A DNA stretch of 64,000 nt. Source: Deltaproteobacteria bacterium (GTDB lineage Bacteria; UBA10199; JACPAL01). The position numbers and the translations under genes were made by a program. Location of the stretch: positions 1 through 64,000 of the forward strand of contig JACPAL010000016.1 of NCBI GenBank assembly GCA_016180855.1. The letters run 5' to 3'. The notes below the pieces were generated by a model. It did no database searches and was not told the origin of the DNA. It saw only the letters and a list, made by a program, of their open reading frames with translations. Below are positions 3,445 through 26,463 of this stretch, piece by piece (within the stretch, counting starts at the first letter, position 1; each line of letters starts with the position of its first letter).

Positions 3445-4191
3445 TTACGGGGGGCCCTCCTCCTTGTCAAGGTCTCCTTCGGATGACTCCTGCGGTTGCC
3501 CCTGCAAGACCTCCTCCTCGGTCGCCTTGAGATCCTTGATCCTCTCTTCCAACTCGCCCAAAATCTCGCGGTCTTTCTCGTCAAGATCGTTCAGATCCTC
3601 GACCGAACGCATGAGATCCCCCAACTGAAGGTCAGTCCCCTCCTCCTTCGGCAGATTCTTTACCTTCTCCTCCAATTCGGAGAGGGGCGGAAGGTCATTC
3701 AAATCATTCAATCCAAATAATTCAAGGAACTCCTTCGTTGTTGCAAAAAGGAGGGGCCGGCCTGGCTCCTCCTTGCGTCCGACAACACGAATCAACCTCT
3801 TTTCAAGGAGTGTCTTCAGAATCCCCGAGCTATCAACCCCACGGATGTTTTCTATCTCAACACGTGTCAGTGGTTGCCGGTAGGCGATCAGGGCAACTGT
3901 CTCGAGGGCACGACCGGACAAACGCTGCGCCTTCTGGGGGTTCAAAAGCTGTATCCAGGGGGCCATTTGAGGGTCGGTCCGGAACTCATATCCACCCGCC
4001 ACCTTGACCAAACGAATTCCTCCTCCCCTCCCCTCCCATTCCAGAACCATCTGCTCCAGAACTTCCTCTATCTCTTTCTTTTTTACTCCCGGTTGCTCCG
4101 GCCCCGAATCCAGAACGGAAAGAATCTCTGACGCTCCCAAGGGACGATCAGAAGAAAAAAGGATCGATTCCAGCAATGCCTTCAATTCCAT
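3445..4191 (-). CDS. scpB: Segregation and condensation protein B
   Basis: ScpB kleisin-partner family; it acts with ScpA and SMC in chromosome condensation and partition. The winged-helix region includes LKALLESILFSSDRPL at the start, the conserved ALETVALIAYRQPLTR (about 95-110) and GRPLLFATTKEFLELFGL. An acidic and Glu-rich tail of about 75 residues follows and looks disordered. It lies three bases after scpA in the same operon. Confidence 0.93.
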   Translation of the reverse strand: MELKALLESILFSSDRPLGASEILSVLDSGPEQPGVKKKEIEEVLEQMVLEWEGRGGGIRLVKVAGGYEFRTDPQMAPWIQLLNPQKAQRLSGRALETVALIAYRQPLTRVEIENIRGVDSSGILKTLLEKRLIRVVGRKEEPGRPLLFATTKEFLELFGLNDLNDLPPLSELEEKVKNLPKEEGTDLQLGDLMRSVEDLNDLDEKDREILGELEERIKDLKATEEEVLQGQPQESSEGDLDKEEGPP

Positions 4192-4194
4192 TCT

Positions 4195-4929
4195 CTAGGC
4201 CTCCCCTTCCTGCAAAATAAGAGGTTGAATAACGATTGCCCCACTTACATTCTCTTGCAGGATTCTTATCAGTTTCTGTCGCGCCATTTCAAGGATGGCG
4301 AGAAAGGTGACGATCATCTCCTCCCGCGTCTTTTCGTCCTCAAACAGTCGCTCAAACAGCATTTGGGATTCCCCGCGCATCTTTTCTACGAGTTCGATGA
4401 TCCGCTCCGCCACCCCGACACGTTCACGACGGACCTCATGGCTCTGCTCGGAAGGGAGCCTCTTTAACAACTCCTGAAAGGCGGTCAACAGGGCAGCCGG
4501 TTCCGCCTCAATCATCGGCTCCCTCTCCGGATCATCGAGAGATTGAGAAGGTCTCCGGAAGAGATCCCGTCCCAACATAGGTCGCTGCGATAGAAAAACT
4601 GCGGCGAGTTTATACTTGCGATACTCCAATAGTCTGGCCGCCAGGTCGGCCCTTGGATCAGGCCCCTCCTCTTTCTCATTCTCTGATTCCGGCAGGAGCA
4701 TTTTGGACTTGATCCAGGCGAGCTCAGCAGCAAGCTCCAGAAATTCACCGGCCAGATCGATATTCAGACCTCTCGCCTGTTGAAGATAGCCAAGATACTG
4801 GTCAAGGATTAAGGCGATCGGAATCTCCTCGATCTCGACATCGTTCTTTCGAACGAGATGCAGCAACAGATCGAGAGGCCCCTCAAAGAGGGGCAGTTCT
4901 ACCTTGTAATCAAGTGTCTCCTCTCTCAT
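4195..4929 (-). CDS. scpA: Segregation and condensation protein A
   Basis: ScpA kleisin of the SMC-ScpAB complex. The N-terminus carries the family signature FEGPLDLLLHLVRK (about 15-28) and IPIALILDQYL. The C-terminal winged helix (VTFLAILEMARQKLIRI) should contact the SMC head. At 244 residues it has typical length. The start overlaps the trpS stop by four bases, so translation is probably coupled. Confidence 0.93.
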   Translation of the reverse strand: MREETLDYKVELPLFEGPLDLLLHLVRKNDVEIEEIPIALILDQYLGYLQQARGLNIDLAGEFLELAAELAWIKSKMLLPESENEKEEGPDPRADLAARLLEYRKYKLAAVFLSQRPMLGRDLFRRPSQSLDDPEREPMIEAEPAALLTAFQELLKRLPSEQSHEVRRERVGVAERIIELVEKMRGESQMLFERLFEDEKTREEMIVTFLAILEMARQKLIRILQENVSGAIVIQPLILQEGEA

Positions 4930-5918
4930 ATCTTCATCACCTTTCGGATCCTCTCCATCGTAGCCTCAGCGACCTGACGGGCCTTCTTCTCCCCTTCCTC
5001 AATAATCAAATCGATCTCCTGCGGTTTTTCCAGTAGCCGGGCCTTTTCTTTCCGGATCGGCTCTAGAAAATCGTTCAGGATCTCGATGATCCTCTTCTTG
5101 TCTTCCACACAGCCAATCTTCGCTGCACGGCATTCCTCGTTGATCCGATTTTGAAGATCCGACGGGCTGTGGAGCTTGTGGTAATCAAAGATAAGGCAGA
5201 TATCGGGATTTCCGGGGTCACTCTTCCTCTGGCGTGCCGGGTCGGTGATTGCCTCGGAGACTTTTCGGCGGATCTCATCGGCGGAGTCGCCGAGATAGAG
5301 ACAGTTGTTATAACTCTTGCTCATCTTCCGGCGATCGGGACCGAGCAATTTCGGAGAATTCGTCAACAACGGTTGGGGTTCAACCAGGGTTTCGCCGTAG
5401 ATAAAGTTAAACCGTCTCACAACCTCACGTGCCAGTTCAATATGCGGTACCTGGTCCTCTCCGACAGGCACCTTGGTGGCGTTATAAAGGACAATATCCG
5501 CTGTCTGCAGAAGTGGATAACCAAGGAACCCGTGGGTGGAGAGGTCCTTCTGGGTCAGCTCTTTTTGAAGATCCTTGTAGGAAGGGACCCGCTCCAGCCA
5601 GCCGAGTGGCGTGATCATCGAAAGGAGAAGGTACAGCTCTGCATGCTCCTTAATGTCCGACTGAATAAAAAAGGTCGCTTTGGACGGATTGAGACCGACA
5701 GAAAGCCAGTCAATAACCATCTCGCGTGTCGATTGGCGGATCGATTCGGGGGTGGCGTATTCCGTTGTCAAGGCATGCCAGTCAGCCACAAAGAAGAAAC
5801 AGTCGTGTTCCTCTTGAAGCTTGAGCCAATTTCGGAGAACCCCATGATAATGTCCCAGATGAAGTCGTCCCGTCGGCCTCATTCCTGAAAGAACAATTTC
5901 CCGAGTCTGTTTTTTCAT
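4926..5918 (-). CDS. trpS: Tryptophanyl-tRNA synthetase
   Basis: Class I synthetase charging tRNA-Trp. HIGH motif is HLGHYHG near the N-terminus and the KMSKS loop is KMSKSYNN. I place the start at the ATG 5918-5916 (MKKQTREIV), whose first bases overlap the stop of the M50 protease gene in an ATGA arrangement; a longer frame reaches 5942. The protein is about 330 residues, as expected. Order M50-trpS-scpA-scpB is common in deltaproteobacteria-like genomes. Confidence 0.95.
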   Translation of the reverse strand: MKKQTREIVLSGMRPTGRLHLGHYHGVLRNWLKLQEEHDCFFFVADWHALTTEYATPESIRQSTREMVIDWLSVGLNPSKATFFIQSDIKEHAELYLLLSMITPLGWLERVPSYKDLQKELTQKDLSTHGFLGYPLLQTADIVLYNATKVPVGEDQVPHIELAREVVRRFNFIYGETLVEPQPLLTNSPKLLGPDRRKMSKSYNNCLYLGDSADEIRRKVSEAITDPARQRKSDPGNPDICLIFDYHKLHSPSDLQNRINEECRAAKIGCVEDKKRIIEILNDFLEPIRKEKARLLEKPQEIDLIIEEGEKKARQVAEATMERIRKVMKI

Positions 5919-6547
5919 GGAAGCAGTATCCCCGCAATCCAATGGATCGGATACATGAGGAGCCGTAACAATCCAATATAAAAGGCAATAAAGAGGAGAA
6001 TAAATCCGTATTGGCTAAACCGATAGTACCCCTCCAGATACTGGTCCGGTAATAACCCCACCAGGATCCCCGACCCATCCAGCGGAGGGATCGGAATCAG
6101 ATTGAAGATTGCCAGGGAGAGGTTCAAAAAAACCCCGATCTCCAGCATTTGAATCAGCATGAGGTAAAGTGTTGTTTCTCCCTGCCATCCGAGGACAAAA
6201 CGAAAAAGGGCCGCAAACAGACCGGCGAGGAGCAGATTCGAGAGAGGTCCTGCGAGAGAAACCTTAAGGTTGCCAACCCTTCCTCCACGCAAGTGATGGG
6301 GATTGACAGGAACCGGCTTCGCCCACCCGAAAAGGGTCAGTCCGGGCATGAGGAACATCATGAGAGGGAAAAGGACCGTCCCGATGAGATCAATATGATG
6401 CAACGGATTTAATGTGAGCCTTCCCAGAAGCCTGGCGGTCGGATCTCCCAGGCGATTGGCCGTCCAGGCATGAGAGAACTCATGAAACGAGAGTGAAAAA
6501 AGGAAGATCGGGAAAAACAGGGCAAATTGGGCAAGGTTCTGAGACAT
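5915..6547 (-). CDS. Site-2 protease-like M50 zinc metalloprotease
   Basis: Integral-membrane M50 peptidase of about 210 residues. The zinc site HEFSHAW lies in the first membrane segment, and the second motif is NLIPIPPLDGSG (the NPxPPLDG motif). There are five to six hydrophobic segments. No PDZ domain is present, as in the short M50B type often found beside trpS. I choose the ATG at 6547 (MSQNLAQ) because the upstream in-frame extension runs into the divergent toxin gene and looks non-coding. The substrate is not known. Confidence 0.88.
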   Translation of the reverse strand: MSQNLAQFALFFPIFLFSLSFHEFSHAWTANRLGDPTARLLGRLTLNPLHHIDLIGTVLFPLMMFLMPGLTLFGWAKPVPVNPHHLRGGRVGNLKVSLAGPLSNLLLAGLFAALFRFVLGWQGETTLYLMLIQMLEIGVFLNLSLAIFNLIPIPPLDGSGILVGLLPDQYLEGYYRFSQYGFILLFIAFYIGLLRLLMYPIHWIAGILLP

Positions 6548-6592
6548 CGAACGGCGACCCGTAGCAGAGCCGAACGGTTTAATCAACCTTCC

Positions 6593-6639
6593 TTGACAAA
6601 TATCTTTAAATATACTAATAAACATATCTAATGAGATAT
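6593..6639 (+). promoter_or_regulatory. Toxin-antitoxin promoter and candidate operator
   Basis: A -35 match TTGACA (6593-6598) is followed 17 bases later by TAATAA (6616-6621); TATACT (6611-6616) is too close to pair with it. An inverted repeat atatct/agatat (6624-6629 and 6634-6639) spans the toxin start codon and is a plausible site for the ribbon-helix-helix antitoxin. The predicted transcript begins within a few bases of the ATG and no Shine-Dalgarno is seen, so the toxin may be translated from a nearly leaderless message. Confidence 0.45.
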
Positions 6640-6888
6640 CGTATTGAGGTTCGTGAATCTGCAGAGAGGGTGTTGAAGAGACTGGATAAAAAGTATCAGA
6701 GGCATGTTTTCGAGAAGATGCTGGAACTTGAAAAAGAGCCAAGAGGCCACAAATGCGAGAAGCTGAAGGGTGTAGAGAATGGCTATCGCAAAGTGGTGTG
6801 GCCCTACCGTATTCTTTACACGATTGATGAAGAAAAAAAAGTTGTTGATGTCTATCTCATAGCTCATCGAAAGGAGGCGTACCGATGA
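6631..6888 (+). CDS. Type II toxin, RelE/ParE family
   Basis: An 85-residue basic protein with the RelE/ParE layout: YRIEVRESAERVLKRLDKKYQRHVFEKM at the start (helical hairpin), then EKLKGVENGYRKVVWPYRILYTID and YLIAHRKEAY at the end. The GYRKV and PYRILY strands and terminal HRKEAYR fit RelE-type ribosome-dependent ribonucleases better than ParE gyrase poisons, but this is inference. The toxin comes first and its TGA overlaps the antitoxin ATG (ATGA). Confidence 0.85.
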   Translation: MRYRIEVRESAERVLKRLDKKYQRHVFEKMLELEKEPRGHKCEKLKGVENGYRKVVWPYRILYTIDEEKKVVDVYLIAHRKEAYR

Positions 6889-7109
6889 AACCTATTTCCA
6901 TAGGATTTGAAGAATCTCTTTTGAAAGAGATCAACGAAAAAGCAAAGGTCCTTAAGATGACCCGGGCGGAACTGATCCGTAACGCAATTTTAGAATACCT
7001 CTTCAAATTTGATGAAGTCCTGGATGCCAAGATGCTTGCTGAGGCAATTGAAAAAGATGAACAGAAAAGACCATTAGAGAAAATTGCACGCGAGCTCGGT
7101 TTTCACTAA
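6885..7109 (+). CDS. Ribbon-helix-helix antitoxin
   Basis: A 74-residue protein with a ribbon-helix-helix N-terminus: a beta strand (PISIGFEESLLKEI), then helix KAKVLKMTRAELIRNAILEYL. The C-terminal half is acidic and probably wraps the toxin. It is translationally coupled to the toxin by a four-base overlap. It should neutralise the toxin and repress the shared promoter. Confidence 0.85.
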   Translation: MKPISIGFEESLLKEINEKAKVLKMTRAELIRNAILEYLFKFDEVLDAKMLAEAIEKDEQKRPLEKIARELGFH

Positions 7110-7155
7110 GTCCTTCGATTCATAAATTCGGTGACGAATTTATTTACTTAGGACT
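7109..7155. repeat. Nested inverted repeats after the toxin-antitoxin pair
   Basis: An inner perfect 9-bp repeat ataaattcg/cgaatttat (7122-7130 and 7135-7143) sits inside an outer agtcct/aggact (7109-7114 and 7150-7155). It begins at the antitoxin stop codon. No T-run follows closely, so it is a possible RNA end hairpin or boundary rather than a classic terminator. Confidence 0.5.
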
Positions 7156-7225
7156 AGTGCTGAGCGAGTAATTTTGTTGATTTTTTGGCTTTGTATATAC
7201 GTCATAGTCATTACGAGTCGAAGTA

Positions 7226-8125
7226 TTAACCCCTTGGATGTTTGGAGGCGATCTCCTTCAGTCTCTTGAGATTAAGATGGGTGTAGATCTGGGTTGTTGA
7301 GATATCGGAATGCCCCAGCATCATCTGGACCGCCCGAAGGTCGGCCCCACGTTCGAGGAGATGTGTTGCAAACGAATGGCGGAGCATATGGGGAGAGACC
7401 CTCTTTCTGATCCCTGCCTTCAGGGCGAGTTGTCGCAGGATCTCCCAAAACATCTGTCGCGTCATCGCACGACGACGACGCGTGAGAAAGAGCGGCTCAA
7501 CAACAGATCCCTTCACTAATTCTCCCCTCCCCTCTTCGAGGTATCTCTTGACGCTCTTCTGGGCGGAGCGACCAATCGGTACAATCCTCTCCTTGGAGCC
7601 TTTCCCGAGCGTTCGGACAAAGCCGGCAGTTAAATCAAGGTCATTGAGCGAGAGATTGACGAGCTCGGAGACACGAAGACCAGTTGCATACAGGAGATCG
7701 AGCATCGCCCGATTCCGGATCTCCTCGGCGAATTTCCCCGTTGGAAGGGCAAGCATCCGGTCAATCTCCGGAAGGGTCAAAAAATCGGGGAGTTTTCTGG
7801 ACGATTTGGGCAGGTCTAGCTCGGATGCAGGATTCGTATCACAAGAGCCTTGTTTCACCATAAACCGGAAGAAGCCGCGAAAGGTTATCAGTTGTCTCGC
7901 AATAGAACGGGATTTAAGTCCGTTCTTCGAGAGCAGGAGGAGATAGTCCAAAAGATGATGGGGGGAGACCTTCTTCCACAGAGTGATCTTTTTTTGGGCC
8001 AGATACCTGCGGAGGTGGAGAAGATCGCTCGCATAAGCCTCAATGGTATGGGCTGCAAGCCCCCTCTCTACGCGGAGGTAATTTAGATACCGTCGACTCT
8101 CTGTATCCCCCTGCCCCTCTTGCAT
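7226..8125 (-). CDS. xerD: Tyrosine recombinase XerD-like
   Basis: Site-specific recombinase that should act with XerC at dif to resolve chromosome dimers. About 299 residues from the ATG at 8125 (MQEGQGD); a longer frame to 8239 has no support. SAM-like N-domain, then catalytic residues in ATGLRVSEL (Arg), GKGSKER (Lys), HMLRHSF (His, Arg), GHSDISTTQIYTH (His and the nucleophile Tyr). Assignment to XerD over XerC rests on the second Xer gene at 12589-13416 lying in the usual xerC context. Confidence 0.88.
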   Translation of the reverse strand: MQEGQGDTESRRYLNYLRVERGLAAHTIEAYASDLLHLRRYLAQKKITLWKKVSPHHLLDYLLLLSKNGLKSRSIARQLITFRGFFRFMVKQGSCDTNPASELDLPKSSRKLPDFLTLPEIDRMLALPTGKFAEEIRNRAMLDLLYATGLRVSELVNLSLNDLDLTAGFVRTLGKGSKERIVPIGRSAQKSVKRYLEEGRGELVKGSVVEPLFLTRRRRAMTRQMFWEILRQLALKAGIRKRVSPHMLRHSFATHLLERGADLRAVQMMLGHSDISTTQIYTHLNLKRLKEIASKHPRG

Positions 8126-8241
8126 CTGACATGAAAGATTACCCCAACTTCCACCCGATGTCCACGAAACCGTTCCATGGGAATATCCACAACTTTTATG
8201 ACTGACAACGAAAATAGGGCTAAAGCTAAAGGAGATCACTC

Positions 8242-9891
8242 ATGGGCAATTATTACCGTCTTGAGACGAATCAACTTCAAACAGTCTATAACCAATTAAG
8301 AGCGGCTGCCAGCCGGTGTGATGATGATAATCGGCCGGTTGCCGCAGAGGCACGGCAGAGCGTCCCTTCGGCACTCACCCCTTGTGATTTCGGCAAACTC
8401 TCCGCCTCCGATCGGAAAAAGCTCTCGATCACGATGACGGATAAGGCCGGCACAAAAGTTTTCGTGAAGAGAGAGGATCTTCTTCAAAATCTCTATTCAA
8501 AACTCCACCGAAGAGACGAGCGGGATGGAAAGGCCGATGGGACGATTACTAACGTTTCAACCTCCTCCCCGATCACAATCCATGACGGCGAATCAGGCTC
8601 CCTCACGGAGCAATTTCAGGAGCTCTATGGTCCTTCGATCTTCGAAATTACGAGGACAGAGATCTCCAGAGGCGGTGGAGCAAGAGGGACGACCTTCATC
8701 ATCGGAAAGAAAGCGCTGGGAGGGGGAAGGTACCTCTACACCTTCGCCACCAACGACCATGTAGCCGACAACAGAACGGAGGAGGAATTCTCATGGACAC
8801 TGTCGCATCCGAACCTTCGCGGCGACGACATGAAGGCAAGACTCGTCGGCATAGACCCCGTCGCCGATCTTGCACTTTTTGAGGCAGAACTGAATCTCGA
8901 TCTCCCGGTTCTTCAATTTGGCGACTCCGAACTCCTTAAACCGGGTGATACCGCAGTCGCTATCGGTAATACGATGGGGCGCGGCATCTTCGCGGCTCAA
9001 GGGGAGATCAAGGAGGCGCATGACGGCATGGAGGGGTACCCTTATTCCCTGATCCGAGCGGAAATGGGGACCGCCTGGGGGAACAGCGGCGGCCCTGTTT
9101 TTAACGAGGATGGAGAGGTGATCGGCATCGTGAGCCGAGGAGACCCGAATGTCGTTGGAATCATTAATTTTGAGATCCCATCGTCACGTGTGCAAAAATC
9201 GATCGAGAATATGCGTCGCAATGCCTCCATGGAAGGGGTCATGACCGGCTATTGGGGATTTGACTTCTGGCCTCTGACACCTGAAAGAAGGAGGCATTTT
9301 GATCAGACCCTCAATCATGGTGTCTGGATTAGCCACGTCGATCCAGATTCCCCCGCCAAAAAGGCAGGTCTTCGTCCCGGAGATCTTTTGCTTACAATCA
9401 ATGGTCGGAGCGAGGTGACACAAATAGACCGGGAGATTGATAGCCACCGCCTGACCTCTGTCATCTACGACAGTCAACGCGGGGAGAGGTTTGTCCTGAC
9501 GGTGTTACGAGAGGGGGCCATTGAAACGGTACGACTTGAAGCCGATCAGATCCTCGAAAAACGGCTTCAGGTCTTTCATACGCCCTATCCATTCGCCGTC
9601 CGGGAGATTAGTCATGACGAGCGGATCACACGTCAGTTGAAGGTAGAAGGGGTCACCGTTATCTTAGATGATCCCAGAGAGCCGCTCTTTCGGACCTTAC
9701 ATAGTGGCAGCATCGTGACTCATATCGATGGGACACCGACCCCAACGGTCCAGGAGTTCAGAACGGTGCTAGCTAAGGCCCATCGACTGGCGAGAAAAAA
9801 GGAGCAGAGGATGATACGTCTCGATTTCTACAGGCCCGCTTCGGTTTTTGGACGGGAGGATTATGGGTTCACCTTGCTCCCGACTCAATGA
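8242..9891 (+). CDS. HtrA/DegP-like serine protease without signal peptide, two PDZ-like domains
   Basis: A 549-residue S1C-type protease. The catalytic triad is visible as H173 (TNDHVAD), D209 (DPVADLALF) and S282 (WGNSGGPV). The first PDZ-like domain lies near 335-440 (VDPDSPAKKAGLRPGDLLLTING) and a second, weaker one follows (TLHSGSIVTHIDGTPTPTVQEF). The first 130 residues (MGNYYRLETNQ...) are polar and match no export signal, although HtrA proteins normally act in the periplasm. The ATG at 8242 has a good ribosome-binding site (AAAGGAGAT). It ends six bases before convergent argB. Confidence 0.85.
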   Translation: MGNYYRLETNQLQTVYNQLRAAASRCDDDNRPVAAEARQSVPSALTPCDFGKLSASDRKKLSITMTDKAGTKVFVKREDLLQNLYSKLHRRDERDGKADGTITNVSTSSPITIHDGESGSLTEQFQELYGPSIFEITRTEISRGGGARGTTFIIGKKALGGGRYLYTFATNDHVADNRTEEEFSWTLSHPNLRGDDMKARLVGIDPVADLALFEAELNLDLPVLQFGDSELLKPGDTAVAIGNTMGRGIFAAQGEIKEAHDGMEGYPYSLIRAEMGTAWGNSGGPVFNEDGEVIGIVSRGDPNVVGIINFEIPSSRVQKSIENMRRNASMEGVMTGYWGFDFWPLTPERRRHFDQTLNHGVWISHVDPDSPAKKAGLRPGDLLLTINGRSEVTQIDREIDSHRLTSVIYDSQRGERFVLTVLREGAIETVRLEADQILEKRLQVFHTPYPFAVREISHDERITRQLKVEGVTVILDDPREPLFRTLHSGSIVTHIDGTPTPTVQEFRTVLAKAHRLARKKEQRMIRLDFYRPASVFGREDYGFTLLPTQ

Positions 9892-9897
9892 GATATT

Positions 9898-12061
<2,164 letters not shown>

Positions 12062-12062
12062 A

Positions 12063-12614
12063 TCAAGCCTCTTGGATCGTTATCTGGTCGTTTGTAAAAA
12101 CACAAATCTCGGCGGCAATTTTTAGTGACTGTTCCGCAATCTCCCGTGCGGATAACTGCGTCTGCCGCATGAGGGCCCTGGCTGCTGCAAGTGCATAAGG
12201 CCCTCCGGAACCGATCGCCGTAATACCGTCATCCGGCTCAATAACGTCTCCGTTGCCTGAGAGGGTCAGTATCTTGGAGTTATCTCCCACTACGAGAAGC
12301 GCCTCCAGACGCCTTAGGATCTTGTCGGTCCTCCAATCTTTGGCGAGTTCAACGGCAGCACGAGCAATGTGGCCGTTGTACTGTTCCAGTTTGGCCTCAA
12401 ATTTTTCAAACAGCGTCAGGGCATCGGCCGTAGAACCCGCAAAGCCCGCCAGGATCTTCCCGTCCCGCATCGAACGAATTTTGGAGGCCTTCGCCTTAAG
12501 GATTGTGTTGCCGACGCTGACCTGTCCATCCGCCGCAAAAACGAGTTTTCCATCGCGAAGGACAGCCAGCACTGTGGTACTCCTGATCTTATGCTTTGGG
12601 GTGGGATTTGTCAT
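12063..12614 (-). CDS. hslV: HslV peptidase subunit of the HslUV protease
   Basis: Proteasome-like Ntn-hydrolase. A short propeptide of 12 residues precedes the nucleophile threonine in STTVLAV (T13). Conserved [18 protein letters not shown] and [14 protein letters not shown] are present. It lies one base before hslU and overlaps the 3' end of xerC by 26 bases, so the three are likely one transcript. Confidence 0.96.
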
Positions 12615-13416
12615 AAACCTCCATCAACTGTTTCAAGCTCACATGGGTATACTTCTGGGTCGTTGACAGACTTGAATGCCCCAACAACTCCTGAATACCG
12701 CGAAGATCGGCTCCACTCTCCAACAGATGGGTTGCATAACTATGTCTCAATGTATGCGGTGTTACGCGTTTGGCAATACCTGCCTTTAAAACATATTTAC
12801 GAATCATCCGTTGAACGGAACGGGGCGTCAGATTAAAAAGGTGTCCTTTCGGCTCACTCTTCCCGTTCTGCTCCTCGTAGATTCGTAGCGCCTGCCTCGC
12901 TTTTCCGCCAACCGGGACAATCCTTTCCTTCTTTCCTTTTCCCAAAACCTTGATCCATCCCTCTTCCAGATCAACATCCTGCCGACGGAGTCCCAGCAAC
13001 TCACTAACCCGCAGACCGCAGCCATAAAGGAGTTCCAAGATCGCCCGATCCCGTTTCGAGGTTGGAGTTTCAACCAAAGCAAACGCCTCGTCAACCACCA
13101 AAAAACGGGGGACCTTTTTAGGCAGCTTGGGGAGTGAAATCTCGTCCGTTGGAGAGACCTGCAGAACTCCCTTTTTAACCAAAAACCGGAAGAAGCTCTT
13201 TAAGACAGAAACCTTGCGGGCAATGGAGACGGCCTGTCGTCCCTGATAGAGGGACAAAATAAAACCACGGACGGTCTCCAGAGCAACAAAGTCAAGACTT
13301 TTTCGGCCGAGGTAATTATAAAATTGTCTGAGATCCCTCTCATAACTAGCAATGGTATGCCTCGAACACCCCTTCTCTCTAAGATTTTTAAGAAATTCCT
13401 TTAAAGGCTCCTTCAT
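12589..13416 (-). CDS. xerC: Tyrosine recombinase XerC-like
   Basis: About 275 residues from the ATG at 13416 (MKEPLKEF), which overlaps the topA stop in an ATGA; a longer frame reaches 13449. Catalytic residues: [10 protein letters not shown] (Arg), GKGKKER (Lys), [10 protein letters not shown] (His, Arg), [13 protein letters not shown] (His, Tyr). The position between topA and hslV is the usual xerC/codV place. In many genomes trmFO stands between topA and xerC; it is absent here. Confidence 0.92.
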
Positions 13417-15698
13417 GATGAAGAGGCTGTCGGACGCGTGTATTCGCACCCTTTGGTGGCACAGCGGATCTCTTCTCCGGTCTTCTTGAACTTCACAACC
13501 AGAAACACCGCCTTACATTCAGGGCATTTTTCAGGAATCGGTTTGTCCCAGGAGGCAAACTTGCACTCGGGATAGGCCGTACAACCGTAGAAGGTTCGCC
13601 CCTTCCGGCTTCTCTTCTCCGTCACCTTTCCTTGCTGGCAGACCGGGCAACTGACCCCGATAGAAACGGCACGGGTCGTCTTGCACTCCGGGTATTTGGG
13701 GCAGGCCAAAAAACGGCCAAAACGACCTGACTTGATGATCATCTGAGAACCACACTGGGAACAAAATTCACCGGTCACCTCACGTTTGGAGAGCTCGATT
13801 TCCCCCTCCTTGTTCCACTGGAATTCCCGCGTATTCTTGCACTCCGGATAATTACTGCAGGCGACAAACTCGCCACGTCTTCCCCATTTGACAATCATCG
13901 GACTGTTACATTTTTCACAGACAAGATCGGTCTTGATCTCCTGCGCCTTGATGTTCTTCATCTGTTTCTTGGCCTTTTCAAGCGTCTTTTCAAATGGATC
14001 GTAAAAATCTTTGAGGGCCTCGACGTAATGCCGCCTCCCCTCTTCGACCTCATCCAGCTCCCCTTCCATCTGGGCAGTAAACTCCACATTGAGGATCTCC
14101 GGAAAATTTTCGACGAGGAGTTTGTTCACGATCACTCCAAGGCGCGTCGGTGTAAACTTGCCTGTCTCCTTCGCAACGTATTCTTTTTCCAGAATGGTAG
14201 AAACAATCGCCGCATAAGTGGAGGGACGCCCAATCCCTTTCTCCTCCAATATCTTAATCAACGAGGCCTCATTATAACGGGGAGGCGGCTCGGTAAAATG
14301 CTGTTCCGGAAAGGGATGCAGGAGCTTGAGTGTTTCTCCTTCTACAAGTGCCGGCAGGTTGCGGTCTTCATCATCCGCTTCCTCCTCACCCTGCTTCTCC
14401 TCAATCAAGCGATCGATCTGATAGGCGGCCAGAAAACCCGGAAACTTGATCTGAGAGCCGGTCGCCCGCAGTCCATAATCACCTGAAGTCATCTGGAAGG
14501 TCGTTTGATCGATGACGGCTGATTCCATTTGCGAGGCCACAAATCGTTTCCAGATCAGTTCGTACAACCGGAATTGATCACGATCGAGAAACGGTCTCAC
14601 CCGGTCCGGCGGATAATCAAGCGAGGACGGCCGAATCGCCTCGTGTGCATCCTGGGCCGCCTTCTTGTTCTTGTAAAAGTTCGGCTGCGGGGGGACAAAG
14701 GAAGGGCCAAACTGACCATGAATGTATCCGCGAACCGCCTCGATTGCCGAGGGAGAAACTCGTGTCGAATCGGTCCTCATGTAAGTAATGAGACCGATCG
14801 GCCCCTCCTCCCCTAACGAAACCCCTTCATACAGTTGCTGGGCAAGCACCATCGTCTTTTTAGCAGAGAAGCCGAGCTTTTGCGAGGCGTCCTGCTGGAT
14901 ACGGCTCGTGATAAACGGGGGCGGTGCATGGCGCCGGCGCTCCTTCCGTTCGATTGTCTTGAGAAGAATGTTTTCACGGGAGATCTCATCGACAATCCGT
15001 TTTGCCTCATCAGCGTTTGTTACCTGAATTTTTTTTCCTTCCAAGGTGACAACACGGGCCCGGAAAGGAGGGGGCGACGAACCCTCACATTCAAAGTCGA
15101 TCGACCAGTATTCTTCAGGCTTAAATGCGCTAATTTCTTCTTCCCTCTCGCAGATCAGGCGAACCGCCACTGACTGGACGCGACCAGCCGAGAGACCACG
15201 GCGAACCTTGTCCCAGAGAAGCGGGCTGATCTGGTAGCCGACGAGTCGGTCCAGGATTCGTCTCGCCTGTTGGGCCTCATAAAGATGTTGATCGAGTTCC
15301 TGTGGATTTTTAAGTGCCTCCTGAATCCCATTTTTTGTGATTTCATGCATCAGAATCCGGTGAATCTTCTTTGCCCCTTTACTCCCCTTTCCCTTCTTTC
15401 CCTGGATCTCCTCAGCCAGATGCCAGGCAATCGCCTCTCCTTCGCGATCCGGGTCACAGGCGAGATAAATCTCATTCGCCGACTCGGCGGCCTTTCGTAT
15501 CTGGTCAACTACTTTCTTTTTGGAAGGGAGGAGGAGGTAGGTGGGAGAAAAACCGTTTTCGATATCGACCCCGAGCTTTCCCTTGGGCAGATCCTTGATA
15601 TGACCGACCGAGGCCTTGACGGTAAAATTCTTCCCTAAATATTTTCCGATCGTCTGTGCCTTCGTCGGTGATTCAACGATAACAAGTGATTTAGCCAT
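13413..15698 (-). CDS. topA: DNA topoisomerase I
   Basis: Type IA topoisomerase relaxing negative supercoils. Toprim domain at the start (SLVIVESPTKAQTIGKYLG, ACDPDREGEAIAWHL) and the active-site Tyr in TYMRTDSTR. Four C-terminal four-cysteine zinc fingers are visible (CEKCNSP, CSQCGSQ, CPVCQQG, CPECKAV, each with a partner CxxxxxxC). The start is the ATG at 15698 (MAKSLVIV) rather than 15740. The start region overlaps the dprA end. Confidence 0.97.
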   Translation of the reverse strand: MAKSLVIVESPTKAQTIGKYLGKNFTVKASVGHIKDLPKGKLGVDIENGFSPTYLLLPSKKKVVDQIRKAAESANEIYLACDPDREGEAIAWHLAEEIQGKKGKGSKGAKKIHRILMHEITKNGIQEALKNPQELDQHLYEAQQARRILDRLVGYQISPLLWDKVRRGLSAGRVQSVAVRLICEREEEISAFKPEEYWSIDFECEGSSPPPFRARVVTLEGKKIQVTNADEAKRIVDEISRENILLKTIERKERRRHAPPPFITSRIQQDASQKLGFSAKKTMVLAQQLYEGVSLGEEGPIGLITYMRTDSTRVSPSAIEAVRGYIHGQFGPSFVPPQPNFYKNKKAAQDAHEAIRPSSLDYPPDRVRPFLDRDQFRLYELIWKRFVASQMESAVIDQTTFQMTSGDYGLRATGSQIKFPGFLAAYQIDRLIEEKQGEEEADDEDRNLPALVEGETLKLLHPFPEQHFTEPPPRYNEASLIKILEEKGIGRPSTYAAIVSTILEKEYVAKETGKFTPTRLGVIVNKLLVENFPEILNVEFTAQMEGELDEVEEGRRHYVEALKDFYDPFEKTLEKAKKQMKNIKAQEIKTDLVCEKCNSPMIVKWGRRGEFVACSNYPECKNTREFQWNKEGEIELSKREVTGEFCSQCGSQMIIKSGRFGRFLACPKYPECKTTRAVSIGVSCPVCQQGKVTEKRSRKGRTFYGCTAYPECKFASWDKPIPEKCPECKAVFLVVKFKKTGEEIRCATKGCEYTRPTASSS

Positions 15699-23123: not shown

Positions 23124-23349
23124 CGATTAGCGCTTATAGTAAGTCACCCGACACAAGGAAAGAAATATTTTAGTTGTCTAGAAAATGTTCCTTCGGCAAA
23201 AATTATTTGATTCTGATTATAAATCAAAGTGTTCCACGCGTGCCTGTCACCAAACAGCGGCCATTTTCATTCCTGATTGGTGCGCCGCAGGCGCATGACC
23301 GGTTGCTAAAAAAACCTCTTAAAAAACACTTGTTTTAAAGGAGGGACCG
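23124..23349. other. Intergenic stretch before the duplicated gene start
   Basis: No convincing gene. It holds the divergent control region for the symporter and a short inverted repeat tgcgcc/ggcgca near 23280. From 23301 it carries the left copy of a sequence that is repeated at 24682 in front of the acyltransferase gene. Confidence 0.5.
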
Positions 23350-23368
23350 ATGAGTTCACTTTCCCCAA
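23301..23368 (+). repeat. Left imperfect direct repeat: copy of the acyltransferase 5' end
   Basis: It starts GGTTGCTAAAAAA and ends with the ribosome-binding site, ATG and first codons of MSSLSP. It aligns to 24682-24738 apart from a gap of about 11 bases and a few substitutions. The two copies bracket the DUF4143 ATPase gene. Confidence 0.85.
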
Positions 23369-23436
23369 CTTTAGCGAGGGGCCAGGTCATTTTTACCCAC
23401 ACAGGTGATTTTGTCTTGACTATTTTTATTTATTAG
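23350..23436 (+). pseudogene. Orphaned 5' fragment of the acyltransferase gene
   Basis: ATG at 23350 begins a 28-codon frame whose first six residues (MSSLSP) equal the start of the acyltransferase at 24721, including the same ribosome-binding site spacing. It then diverges and stops at TAG 23434-23436. Best read as a leftover of the duplication rather than a working gene. Confidence 0.65.
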
Positions 23437-23443
23437 ATAAAAA
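23416..23443 (+). promoter_or_regulatory. Candidate promoter of the DUF4143 ATPase
   Basis: TTGACT (23416-23421) and TAAAAA (23438-23443), 16 bases apart, directly upstream of the GTG start in a very A+T-rich stretch. The match is moderate. Confidence 0.4.
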
Positions 23444-23450
23444 TATCATA

Positions 23451-24659
23451 GTGTTCCATCGGGCCCTAGAAGAGGTTTGCTTTGATCCACTTTTTGGACG
23501 GCAGATGAGATTTGTTGCTGGGCCTAGGCAAGTTGGCAAGACAACACTAGCCCGGTCTTTTTTGGAATCCAAAAAATCGGGGATATTTTACTATAATTGG
23601 GACCAACGCACCCTCCGCACCCATTTTAAGAAAGACCCACATTTTTTCCATTCAGATGTTCTGAAAGAGAAAAAGCAAGGAGAGACCTGGATCTGCTTTG
23701 ATGAAATTCACAAATATCCAAAATGGAAGAACATCTTGAAGGACCTCTTTGATTCGTTTGAAGATCGTTATCATTTCATTGTCACGGGTAGCGCCCGGCT
23801 AGACCTTTTTCGGAGGTCGGGTGACTCTCTTTCAGGTCGCTACTTTCTTTTTCGTCTCTTACCGATTTCCCTTTTTGAAATGGAAGGACGCCCACTGGAT
23901 CTGCCTGATACCGATGCCAAGACATTTATCGAGAAAAATATTCAAGATCGGGAACACGCTTCAGACTTAGAACAACTCCTTCAATTTGGTGGTTTCCCAG
24001 AGCCTTTGTTTAAAGCAAACGAGGTTTTTTCCTCTCATTGGCGCGAAGAGTATCTTGAGTCCCTTTTAAAAGAAGATCTTAGGGATCTTACAAAGATTCA
24101 TGAACTTGAGAATGTGGCAAGTTTTCTTTCCCTTTTGCCCGAACGTGTTGGTTCTCCTTTGTCGCTGAATGCCGTTCGAGAGAATCTGGAGGTGAGCTAC
24201 ACGGCAACAAAAAATTATCTTCAGGCGGCCTTTTTTACGTACATTCTCTTTCAAGTGCCTCCTTACACCCAAAAAATATCAAGAAGCTTAAAAAAAGAGA
24301 AAAAAATTTATTTTTTTGACTGGACAAATGTCACAGATCCGTCAAAGCGGTTTGAAAACTATGTAGCGGTAGAACTCAAAAATAGAGTGGATCTTTGGAC
24401 CTCAGCTACAAAATACAAGTTTGATCTCTTCTTTGTTCGAAGTCGTGATGGGAGAGAGACAGATTTTTTGGTGACTCGAGATGCCAAACCCTATTTTCTT
24501 GTTGAAGCAAAACTTTCATCGGATCAAATTGAATCTCACAATCGCCATCATGCAGTGGTTCTTGGAAATATCCCCCTTATCCAGCTAATTGCCAAACAGG
24601 GGGTTGTTAAGGCGGGGCGGGATAATACCTATCTTCTTTCCGCATCAAGATTTCTTTAA
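23451..24659 (+). CDS. AAA ATPase with DUF4143 C-terminus
   Basis: 402 residues, GTG start. Walker A GPRQVGKTTLARS (about 24-36), Walker B WICFDEIHKYPKW, sensor motif FIVTGSARLDLFRRSGDSLSGRY. The C-terminal DUF4143 part has a PD-(D/E)xK-like nuclease core (RETDFLVTRD and FLVEAKLSS). These ATPases are widespread and patchy; their function is mostly unknown. The gene is visibly more A+T-rich than its neighbours and is bracketed by copies of the next gene's 5' end, so it was probably inserted. Confidence 0.9.
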   Translation: MFHRALEEVCFDPLFGRQMRFVAGPRQVGKTTLARSFLESKKSGIFYYNWDQRTLRTHFKKDPHFFHSDVLKEKKQGETWICFDEIHKYPKWKNILKDLFDSFEDRYHFIVTGSARLDLFRRSGDSLSGRYFLFRLLPISLFEMEGRPLDLPDTDAKTFIEKNIQDREHASDLEQLLQFGGFPEPLFKANEVFSSHWREEYLESLLKEDLRDLTKIHELENVASFLSLLPERVGSPLSLNAVRENLEVSYTATKNYLQAAFFTYILFQVPPYTQKISRSLKKEKKIYFFDWTNVTDPSKRFENYVAVELKNRVDLWTSATKYKFDLFFVRSRDGRETDFLVTRDAKPYFLVEAKLSSDQIESHNRHHAVVLGNIPLIQLIAKQGVVKAGRDNTYLLSASRFL

Positions 24660-24681
24660 TATCGCCCCCCCTCCCCGCCAT

Positions 24682-24738
24682 GGTTGCTAAAAAACCCGTC
24701 TTGTTTTAGAGGAGGGGCCGATGAGTTCACTCTCCCCA
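24682..24738 (+). repeat. Right imperfect direct repeat at the acyltransferase start
   Basis: It covers GGTTGCTAAAAAA, the ribosome-binding site GAGGAGGGG and the first codons of the acyltransferase. Its partner is 23301-23368. Confidence 0.85.
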
Positions 24739-26463
24739 TGGCTTGTTCTCTTGATTTATCTCGTCCCGATCATCGGAACGATCAGCCAGATCTGGCGACG
24801 AATGGGGCAGATCTGGGTCTGGGATGCCCGATTCATCAACTGGAAGCGGCTCCACCCGTTGACCCAATACACAAACCTCCGTTCTCTGAACCATCTTGCG
24901 GGACGGATCGAGTACGCCACAGGCCACTTCCGCGACTATACGATCGGTCTCTATATGATGGGAACGGCCGTCTATGAGGCGACCCTCATGGTCTCCTGGG
25001 ACCCCTCCATTCGGGGGGACCTCTTCTTGAGCCTCTTCTACCACACAGTTTTTGCCCTCCTCTCCCTCTGGACCTACCGCCGACATGTCGCCATCGGCCT
25101 TCAAATGACCGAATTCATGAGGATCAACCCGCACGTACACCCCCAGGAGTTTTTTGACCATTATTATGAAAGGCTGGGGCCGGGGGCGATTCCGATCCCG
25201 ACCAGGGCGGAGAGAACAGTCGATCCGACCAATGTCTCCTACTTAACCGGTCGCCCTCAGAGACAGACCTATTGGACCTGGATTCATGGGGCGTATGACA
25301 CCGCCCTCTTTGCACGAAGTGCCTTCCGGGCCCTCGAGGTCTTGGGAAAGGAATATGGGAGGGAGGTGTTTGACGTCATGGCCTCACTCTGGGGTTCCCG
25401 GATGCTTCAACTCTTTCACGCCAAGATGACGGTTACGGGATCCGAAAAACTGAAGAGCCTTTCAGGGAAAATTATTCTCGTCTTCAATCATAAAACCTAC
25501 CTTGATTTTGTCTTCAATTTCTTTGCGTTGAGTTCTGCCCAGTTGGCCGACGGCCGTTCCCTTCGCCCTCGCTACATGGCGGCCAAGGATCATCTCGTCG
25601 ATAATGCCCTCGTTTACAACGGCTTTGGGATCGGAAAATTGGTAGAGAGCGTCGATATGGTCTTTGTCGATCGTCAGGGAAAGGGACAGCTCGCCGTCTC
25701 CGACGCCTCCGAAAAAATTGTTGGGAAGGAGATCGACCTCGCACTCTATCCGCAAGGAACACGCGCCCTCCCGAACTACGGATCGCTTGGGGAGCGCCTC
25801 GATGCGGGCTACTACACGACCGGTGGTCTCAATTCCCTTAAAAAAGAGCTCGGCCATCTTAAAAAAGGTTGTGCCTACCTTGCCGCGGATGCGGCGATTG
25901 CGCTGCGTGACAAAGGCGTTCCCCTGCATCTTGTTTTTATCGGTATCAACGGCGATGCCACGATACTCCCGAAAGGTTCCTTCAAGATCCAGACGGAAGG
26001 GGTTGTCGAGTGTCATGTCGGCGAGATTTTGACACTCACTTCGGACGACGTTCGGGAGGTTGAAAAATCAGGACAAAAATATCTGGAGTTGACCGGGCGG
26101 ATCCACCGGGAAATCAATCGCGGGCTCGTCAAGGCAACCGGAATCAACGAAACCCTGAAACGTCGTTTTCTGGAAGATTCAAGAAAAGATTCGATTGCCT
26201 CCAAGGAGCAACAATTGAAACTCCAGGGGCTTTTAAAACAGGCCGATCAGGAGGAAAACTTTCTTCCCTTTATTATTCTGGACCGAATTTTCACCCTTCC
26301 TTTCGTGGAGAGGGCCCCCTTCCTTAAAGAACTCGTCGCCCGCCTCACGGAGAGGGGAAATCTGACGGATCTCTCTGAACAGGTTACGGATCAGATGTTC
26401 CGGTACCGTGGAACGGAGCTCAAAAGAATTGTTCGGCAGGAACAGGCGAGGAGATCGGCATGA
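24721..26463 (+). CDS. PlsC-type acyltransferase fused to a long N-terminal membrane region
   Basis: 580 residues. An N-terminal hydrophobic region (1-130) precedes the acyltransferase core: NHKTYLD (the HxxxxD catalytic motif, near 259) and LYPQGTRALPN (the EGTR-like block, here PQGTR). It should transfer acyl groups to a glycerophosphate-like or other alcohol at the membrane. A helical C-terminal part of about 130 residues has no family I recognise. It overlaps the downstream epimerase gene by four bases, so the two are coupled. Confidence 0.82.
   Translation: MSSLSPWLVLLIYLVPIIGTISQIWRRMGQIWVWDARFINWKRLHPLTQYTNLRSLNHLAGRIEYATGHFRDYTIGLYMMGTAVYEATLMVSWDPSIRGDLFLSLFYHTVFALLSLWTYRRHVAIGLQMTEFMRINPHVHPQEFFDHYYERLGPGAIPIPTRAERTVDPTNVSYLTGRPQRQTYWTWIHGAYDTALFARSAFRALEVLGKEYGREVFDVMASLWGSRMLQLFHAKMTVTGSEKLKSLSGKIILVFNHKTYLDFVFNFFALSSAQLADGRSLRPRYMAAKDHLVDNALVYNGFGIGKLVESVDMVFVDRQGKGQLAVSDASEKIVGKEIDLALYPQGTRALPNYGSLGERLDAGYYTTGGLNSLKKELGHLKKGCAYLAADAAIALRDKGVPLHLVFIGINGDATILPKGSFKIQTEGVVECHVGEILTLTSDDVREVEKSGQKYLELTGRIHREINRGLVKATGINETLKRRFLEDSRKDSIASKEQQLKLQGLLKQADQEENFLPFIILDRIFTLPFVERAPFLKELVARLTERGNLTDLSEQVTDQMFRYRGTELKRIVRQEQARRSA

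Follow-up and report, generated by a model that had tools for sequence, protein, structure and literature searches.

A DUF4143 ATPase gene between two copies of an acyltransferase gene start, and similar one-gene insertions at host-gene ends

Introduction

Integrative elements that enter at the 3' ends of tRNA genes rebuild the end of the host gene and leave a fragment of it on the far side. Long, variable target duplications have been described around inserted restriction-modification genes that have no link to a known mobile element and are missing from related genomes (PMC3031569, PMC3874152), and the same two papers credit such insertions to Nobusato et al. 2000 and Furuta et al. 2010. Laboratory bacteria are known to undergo homology-facilitated illegitimate recombination during DNA uptake and conjugation (PMC3240628). 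Among single-gene defence candidates, PDC-S01, which combines an ATPase with a PD-(D/E)XK nuclease, is reported to rank fourth in frequency among prokaryotic defence systems and to have been transferred repeatedly, and defence activity awaits validation for most candidates of this kind (PMC12988326). With PDC-S01 among the commonest prokaryotic defence candidates, we address how single defence genes reach their sites without transposases, starting from one such gene in a window of 64,000 nt (the whole stretch of DNA that was analysed) from a Deltaproteobacteria genome, and extending the comparison to other DUF4143 genes of the same genome, of its class and beyond.

Results

A block of 57-67 nt that holds the leader of an acyltransferase gene with its ribosome-binding site and six initial codons is present twice in the window, with the DUF4143 ATPase gene between the copies (Table 1). 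The two copies share a direct repeat core of 39 nt with 92% identity (23329-23367 / 24700-24738) and a second segment of 16 nt (23301-23316 / 24682-24697); aligned over the whole block they are identical in 53 of 67 columns, with about 10 additional nt in the A-rich leader of the upstream copy and a single difference, which is synonymous, in the coding part. The best local score of one flank against the other was 67, whereas 2000 first-order Markov resamples reached 31 at most; this confirms the repeat reported in a preliminary description of this DNA, whose coordinates are correct to within 1 nt. The orphan 28-codon frame that it noted at the upstream copy is likewise read in the sequence, from its ATG at 23350 to a TAG that ends at 23436, and the ATPase gene is A+T-rich as described, with a GC content of 0.42 against 0.52-0.54 in the flanks. 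The downstream acyltransferase is a membrane-lipid gene with homologues in 41 of 60 genomes.

Table 1. Features of the ATPase insertion in the window (positions are those of the whole stretch)
Feature	Position	Strand	Basis
Orphan upstream copy: leader, ribosome-binding site, start codon and first six codons	23301..23367	+	direct repeat
Orphan 28-codon frame opening with the shared MSSLSP; remaining codons unrelated, TAG stop	23350..23436	+	sequence
Inserted unit: one gene and promoter, ~1.3 kb, abutted by the copies on both sides	23368..24681	+	direct repeat
Palindrome TATTTTTATTTA-t-TAGATAAAAATA, directly 5' of the ATPase start	23421..23445	+	palindrome score 9.5
AAA_14-DUF4143 ATPase with PD-(D/E)XK residues (PADLOC PDC-S01), 402 aa, intact	23451..24659	+	ORF, profiles
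Downstream copy, the working acyltransferase start	24682..24738	+	direct repeat
Host gene: 580-aa acyltransferase (PF01553), intact	24721..26463	+	ORF list, Pfam

Three other readings of this arrangement were considered and rejected. A transposon was discarded because the unit has no transposase ORF, no ends shared with other units and no terminal inverted repeats pairing its two ends. A pre-existing dispersed repeat was discarded because the block is found in exactly two copies in the 2.21 Mb genome. A conserved leader peptide encoded by the upstream copy was discarded because six relatives have no second copy 5' of the acyltransferase. In these six relatives the acyltransferase also lacks an adjoining ATPase; we had looked among them for genomes without the ATPase that still carry both copies, the case that the preliminary description set against its own reading, and found none. 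The relatives of this locus are distant, with ~55% protein identity and different upstream neighbours, and offer no base-by-base empty site; a contig scan for closer ones retrieved distant Deltaproteobacteria MAGs only.

The ATPase ORF starts with GTG, and its product matches Pfam AAA_14 (E=1.9e-29) and DUF4143 (E=1.3e-20) above cut-off as well as, across nearly the whole protein, the PADLOC model of PDC-S01 (PDLC04790, E=2.7e-53). An alignment of 12 diverse members including the window ATPase has nine invariant residues (G24, G29, K30, D84, E85, E302, D338, E352 and K354), corresponding to the Walker A/B motifs and to the E/D/ExK of PD-(D/E)XK nucleases. Among archaeal ATPases, the AlphaFold model (pLDDT 74) matches 2qen (Z 15.1; 257 aligned at rmsd 5.0) and 2fna (Z 14.8; 254 aligned at rmsd 4.8), so that the predicted ATPase fold is AAA/STAND-like, and the middle region probably contains a winged helix. 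When the C-terminal part of the model was searched alone, its weak best matches were restriction-endonuclease-fold nucleases (Bax1, 3ijm, DrdV, McrC and TnsA), none with E<0.001, and a phmmer search against PDB sequences gave no match. By its assignment to PDC-S01, an unvalidated single-gene candidate, the product would act in phage defence.

DUF4143 genes number ~22 in this genome and up to 50 in other genomes of the class. The best match of 88 out of 94 DUF4143 proteins lies in another genome, identity reaches 86% even where the two class members are distant relatives, and a neighbour is shared in 8 of 544 related pairs, so these genes move far and land at unrelated places. One DUF4143 gene of the same genome (L066, G000:C12:16000-30000, ~6592-7183) is broken by an in-frame TGA, so that some copies are decaying.

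We then inspected the flanks of other DUF4143 genes for bracketing repeats, the check that had been proposed for this locus. Within the genome itself, 6 of the 8 genes with the top bracketing-repeat scores, among 186, are DUF4143 genes. Counting repeats scoring at least 36 within 300 nt in 61 regions of the class, we found 10/69 DUF4143 genes bracketed versus 2/314 other genes (Fisher 1e-6); a further set yielded 2/23 versus 0/59, for a combined 12/91 versus 2/373, and the 12/91 dropped to 0-2 when windows shifted by 700-1500 nt at the same loci were used as a control. The outcome of the check is thus positive, and the one-gene insertion pattern recurs at other genes of this genome and across the class. 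The bracketing repeats are 19-59 nt long, their copies are similar, and most are specific to one locus. As a clear repeat surrounds only ~13% of DUF4143 genes, the rest needs other routes of entry or decay of the repeat. Beyond the class, a second phylum plus scattered further genomes gave about 4 of 50 at the same score, one of them a dispersed repeat (L262, G072:C47, query region 1240-1340), present by a DUF4143 gene and in dozens of intergenic copies in one genus of another phylum. The stranded copies of L130 and L257 do not run into the expected gene context; L257, from another phylum and exact over 52/52 nt, has a stranded piece that comes from a PIN/VapC-like gene, but was discarded since the context misfits a simple duplication.

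Some neighbouring arrangements were recorded in the same genome. At L067 (G000:C2:67000-81500, 6824-9345) three copies of a 23-31 nt block lie around a DUF6036-type nucleotidyltransferase gene followed by a DUF4143 gene, an order that would fit two successive entries at one spot. At L062 (G000:C5:55000-69000, 6033-8095) exact 19-nt repeats flank a DUF4143 unit that stands directly before a pair encoding a nucleotidyltransferase-substrate-binding protein and a nucleotidyltransferase (PF08780, PF01909).

Sister genomes provided counterparts that lack the gene at two further sites, both occupied in genome G016. There, the final 21 nt of smc, up to and including the stop codon, recur after a DUF4143 gene (20/21 identical), while G043 and G045 have no DUF4143 gene at this place and the smc stop touches the ATG of the next gene (TAAATGG and TAGATGG). 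The smc interval of G016 also holds an additional 347-aa gene, and therefore more than one insertion has occurred in it. Similarly, the end of ald (48 nt, 46/48 identical) is repeated beyond another DUF4143 gene of G016; at the ald locus, neither G043 nor G021 has this gene. None of these gene-less counterparts has a second copy, and the reading as an insertion that duplicates a gene end therefore holds at both sites.

Two other candidates for empty sites were discarded: L158, for which the left and right flanks in G007 are on different contigs and the homology on the left ends at the first copy, and the bcp locus of G007, where G018 of the same genus carries a toxin-antitoxin-like pair. This pair (L190, G018:C149:16500-25193, 3865-4944) consists of an HTH gene and a nucleotidyltransferase gene after bcp, at the place of the DUF4143 gene of G007, and has no duplicated bcp end. 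The site after bcp is a recurrent insertion spot.

To define the inserted unit we compared bracketed cases, leaving out L148 and L112, whose repeats overlap promoters or repetitive coding sequence. Across 11 comparable cases the unit measures 1246-1368 nt from copy to copy, with the start codon 41-141 nt past the first copy and the stop within ~40 nt of the second. Between related elements at different sites, DNA similarity mostly begins 20-53 nt 5' of the start codon and does not run past the stop codon; given this extent and the uniform length, the unit comprises a single gene and its promoter. The duplicated piece is mostly the 3' end of the neighbouring gene (smc, ald, bcp and others); in L143 and L062 it comes from intergenic DNA, and at the window locus from a 5' end. 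In several cases the insert supplies the host gene's new last codon or two, as at bcp, where the working gene ends WKELP and the stranded copy continues to LSAID.

Palindromes scoring at least 9 precede the start codon in 40% of 95 DUF4143 genes versus 4.4% of 411 other genes (p=4e-26), and their sequence changes from element to element. The window palindrome overlaps a TTGACT promoter-like box at 23416-23421. These palindromes are possible autoregulatory operators, which suggests that each unit carries a control switch of its own.

The two copies of a duplicated end could be compared in coding sequence at nine gene ends. Together these contain 28 differences, 22 of them synonymous and 20 at third positions, where duplication followed by drift predicts 11.6 synonymous changes (~40%); none of 2000 simulations of this null reached 22. 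At L115 the stranded copy has a GC3 of 0.83 over 18 codons, against 0.38 in the surrounding genes. The synonymous excess makes a decayed plain target-site duplication unlikely, and jointly with the foreign GC3 it gives the copies the look of one gene end taken from two alleles or species, which favours an entry in which a homologous gene end paired with the host's.

Long-repeat insertion is not exclusive to DUF4143 genes, since an AbiEi/AbiEii pair with a small gene lies between 192-nt repeats of 96% identity at L119 (G003:C3:32757-45233, 9305-12021). At L114 (G012:C30:46359-61580, ~7100-14250) a run of small toxin-antitoxin-like and nucleotidyltransferase genes and a DUF4143 gene are separated by several copies of one repeat of ~24-40 nt (TTTGCAAGCGTGCCTGGCACCAAGATT), in an arrangement like a cassette array. 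The entry route is probably common to other defence and toxin-antitoxin genes.

Discussion

Our preferred reading, to which we give a probability of about 0.6, is that the window ATPase is a horizontally acquired, stand-alone PDC-S01-type gene that entered together with, or paired through, a stretch of homology to the acyltransferase start. The gene, behind its own promoter palindrome, would have arrived by horizontal transfer and entered just 5' of the acyltransferase, either with a short stretch homologous to the start of that gene or by pairing with one. The homologous gene end would serve as an anchor on one side, and the other side would be closed by an illegitimate join, unless a small circle integrated at the gene end. 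One copy of the start would remain fused to the acyltransferase, and the host gene would for this reason keep a complete start, while the other copy would be left stranded beyond the insert. The synonymous excess over the nine coding ends and the GC3 of the L115 copy fit what such an anchor would bring from a donor. Since the coding part of the window copies shows a single, synonymous difference, we infer the anchor step at this locus from the others, and prefer a homologous anchor to a target duplication made by a transposase.

The preliminary description had proposed an insertion that duplicated its target and kept the acyltransferase start intact, as though selected to do no harm. Insertion with duplication of a gene end stands, as seen at smc and ald, whereas a plain target duplication is at odds with the synonymous excess. 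An intact host gene does recur from locus to locus, but special design is not needed to explain it, because insertions that broke the gene would have been lost.

A true target-site duplication, in which a nuclease makes widely staggered cuts, the unit is inserted and the gaps are filled, leaving a copy of 20-60 nt that has no function and decays, would explain why the repeats vary in sequence and length from locus to locus, why each copy touches one side of the insert and why gene-less sister genomes have no second copy. It is nonetheless unlikely, given the simulated expectation for synonymous changes and an orphan copy at L115 whose GC3 is foreign to its surroundings. The synonymous excess would be accounted for with no special insertion step if the insertion did duplicate its target and the working gene end was later replaced by alleles from other strains, and core genes such as smc and ald are indeed among the host genes. 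This explanation, which we also consider improbable, requires repeated import of alleles ending inside a short repeat, and at L115 it is the stranded copy, not the working one, that has the foreign GC3. We put still less weight on the possibility that DUF4143 genes are self-moving, with their own ATPase-nuclease cutting conserved host-gene ends and the carried gene-end fragment acting as the attachment site; if they were, the unit would repair the gene that it enters and spread with neither a transposase nor an integrase.

A duplication unrelated to the ATPase is very unlikely; in this reading the ATPase would have come in by ordinary recombination between two older repeats, or a tandem duplication of the start would have been filled later. 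The distance of the relatives at the window locus leaves some room for this, but bracketing repeats are strongly enriched around DUF4143 genes, and relatives without the gene have no second copy. Chance similarity or an assembly error has next to no weight: the genomes are draft assemblies, many of them in 20-200 contigs, yet the flank score is more than any resample gave, and the pattern recurs in several genomes with copies that have diverged and are not identical.

Compared with known systems, the window protein equals PDC-S01 in its HMM match and domain make-up; the passages on PDC-S01 used here mention neither how the gene inserts nor any promoter palindromes or duplicated ends of host genes (PMC12988326). 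Integrative elements of tRNA 3' ends resemble these insertions in the rebuilt gene end and the fragment on the far side, and differ from them in that here the unit contains no integrase, the targets are protein genes and each locus has a different target. In homology-facilitated illegitimate recombination, one homologous and one illegitimate join could leave a gene-end duplication of the kind seen here. With dozens of DUF4143 genes per genome, some of them clean insertions with gene-less counterparts and traceable gene-end copies, the entry route is directly testable. The likeness to the insertions of restriction-modification genes, as the papers cited above characterize them, is in the long, variable, locus-specific direct repeats at both ends and in the lack of linkage to a known mobile element, and at smc and ald also in the absence of the gene from sister genomes; the window unit differs in being one ATPase-nuclease gene with no methyltransferase, and the repeats here are at host-gene ends, differ mostly by synonymous changes and occur class-wide. 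Our finding thus extends the long-target-duplication insertions known for restriction-modification genes, and what it adds to them is new: class-wide one-gene DUF4143 insertions at host-gene ends, promoter palindromes and a synonymous signature between the copies.
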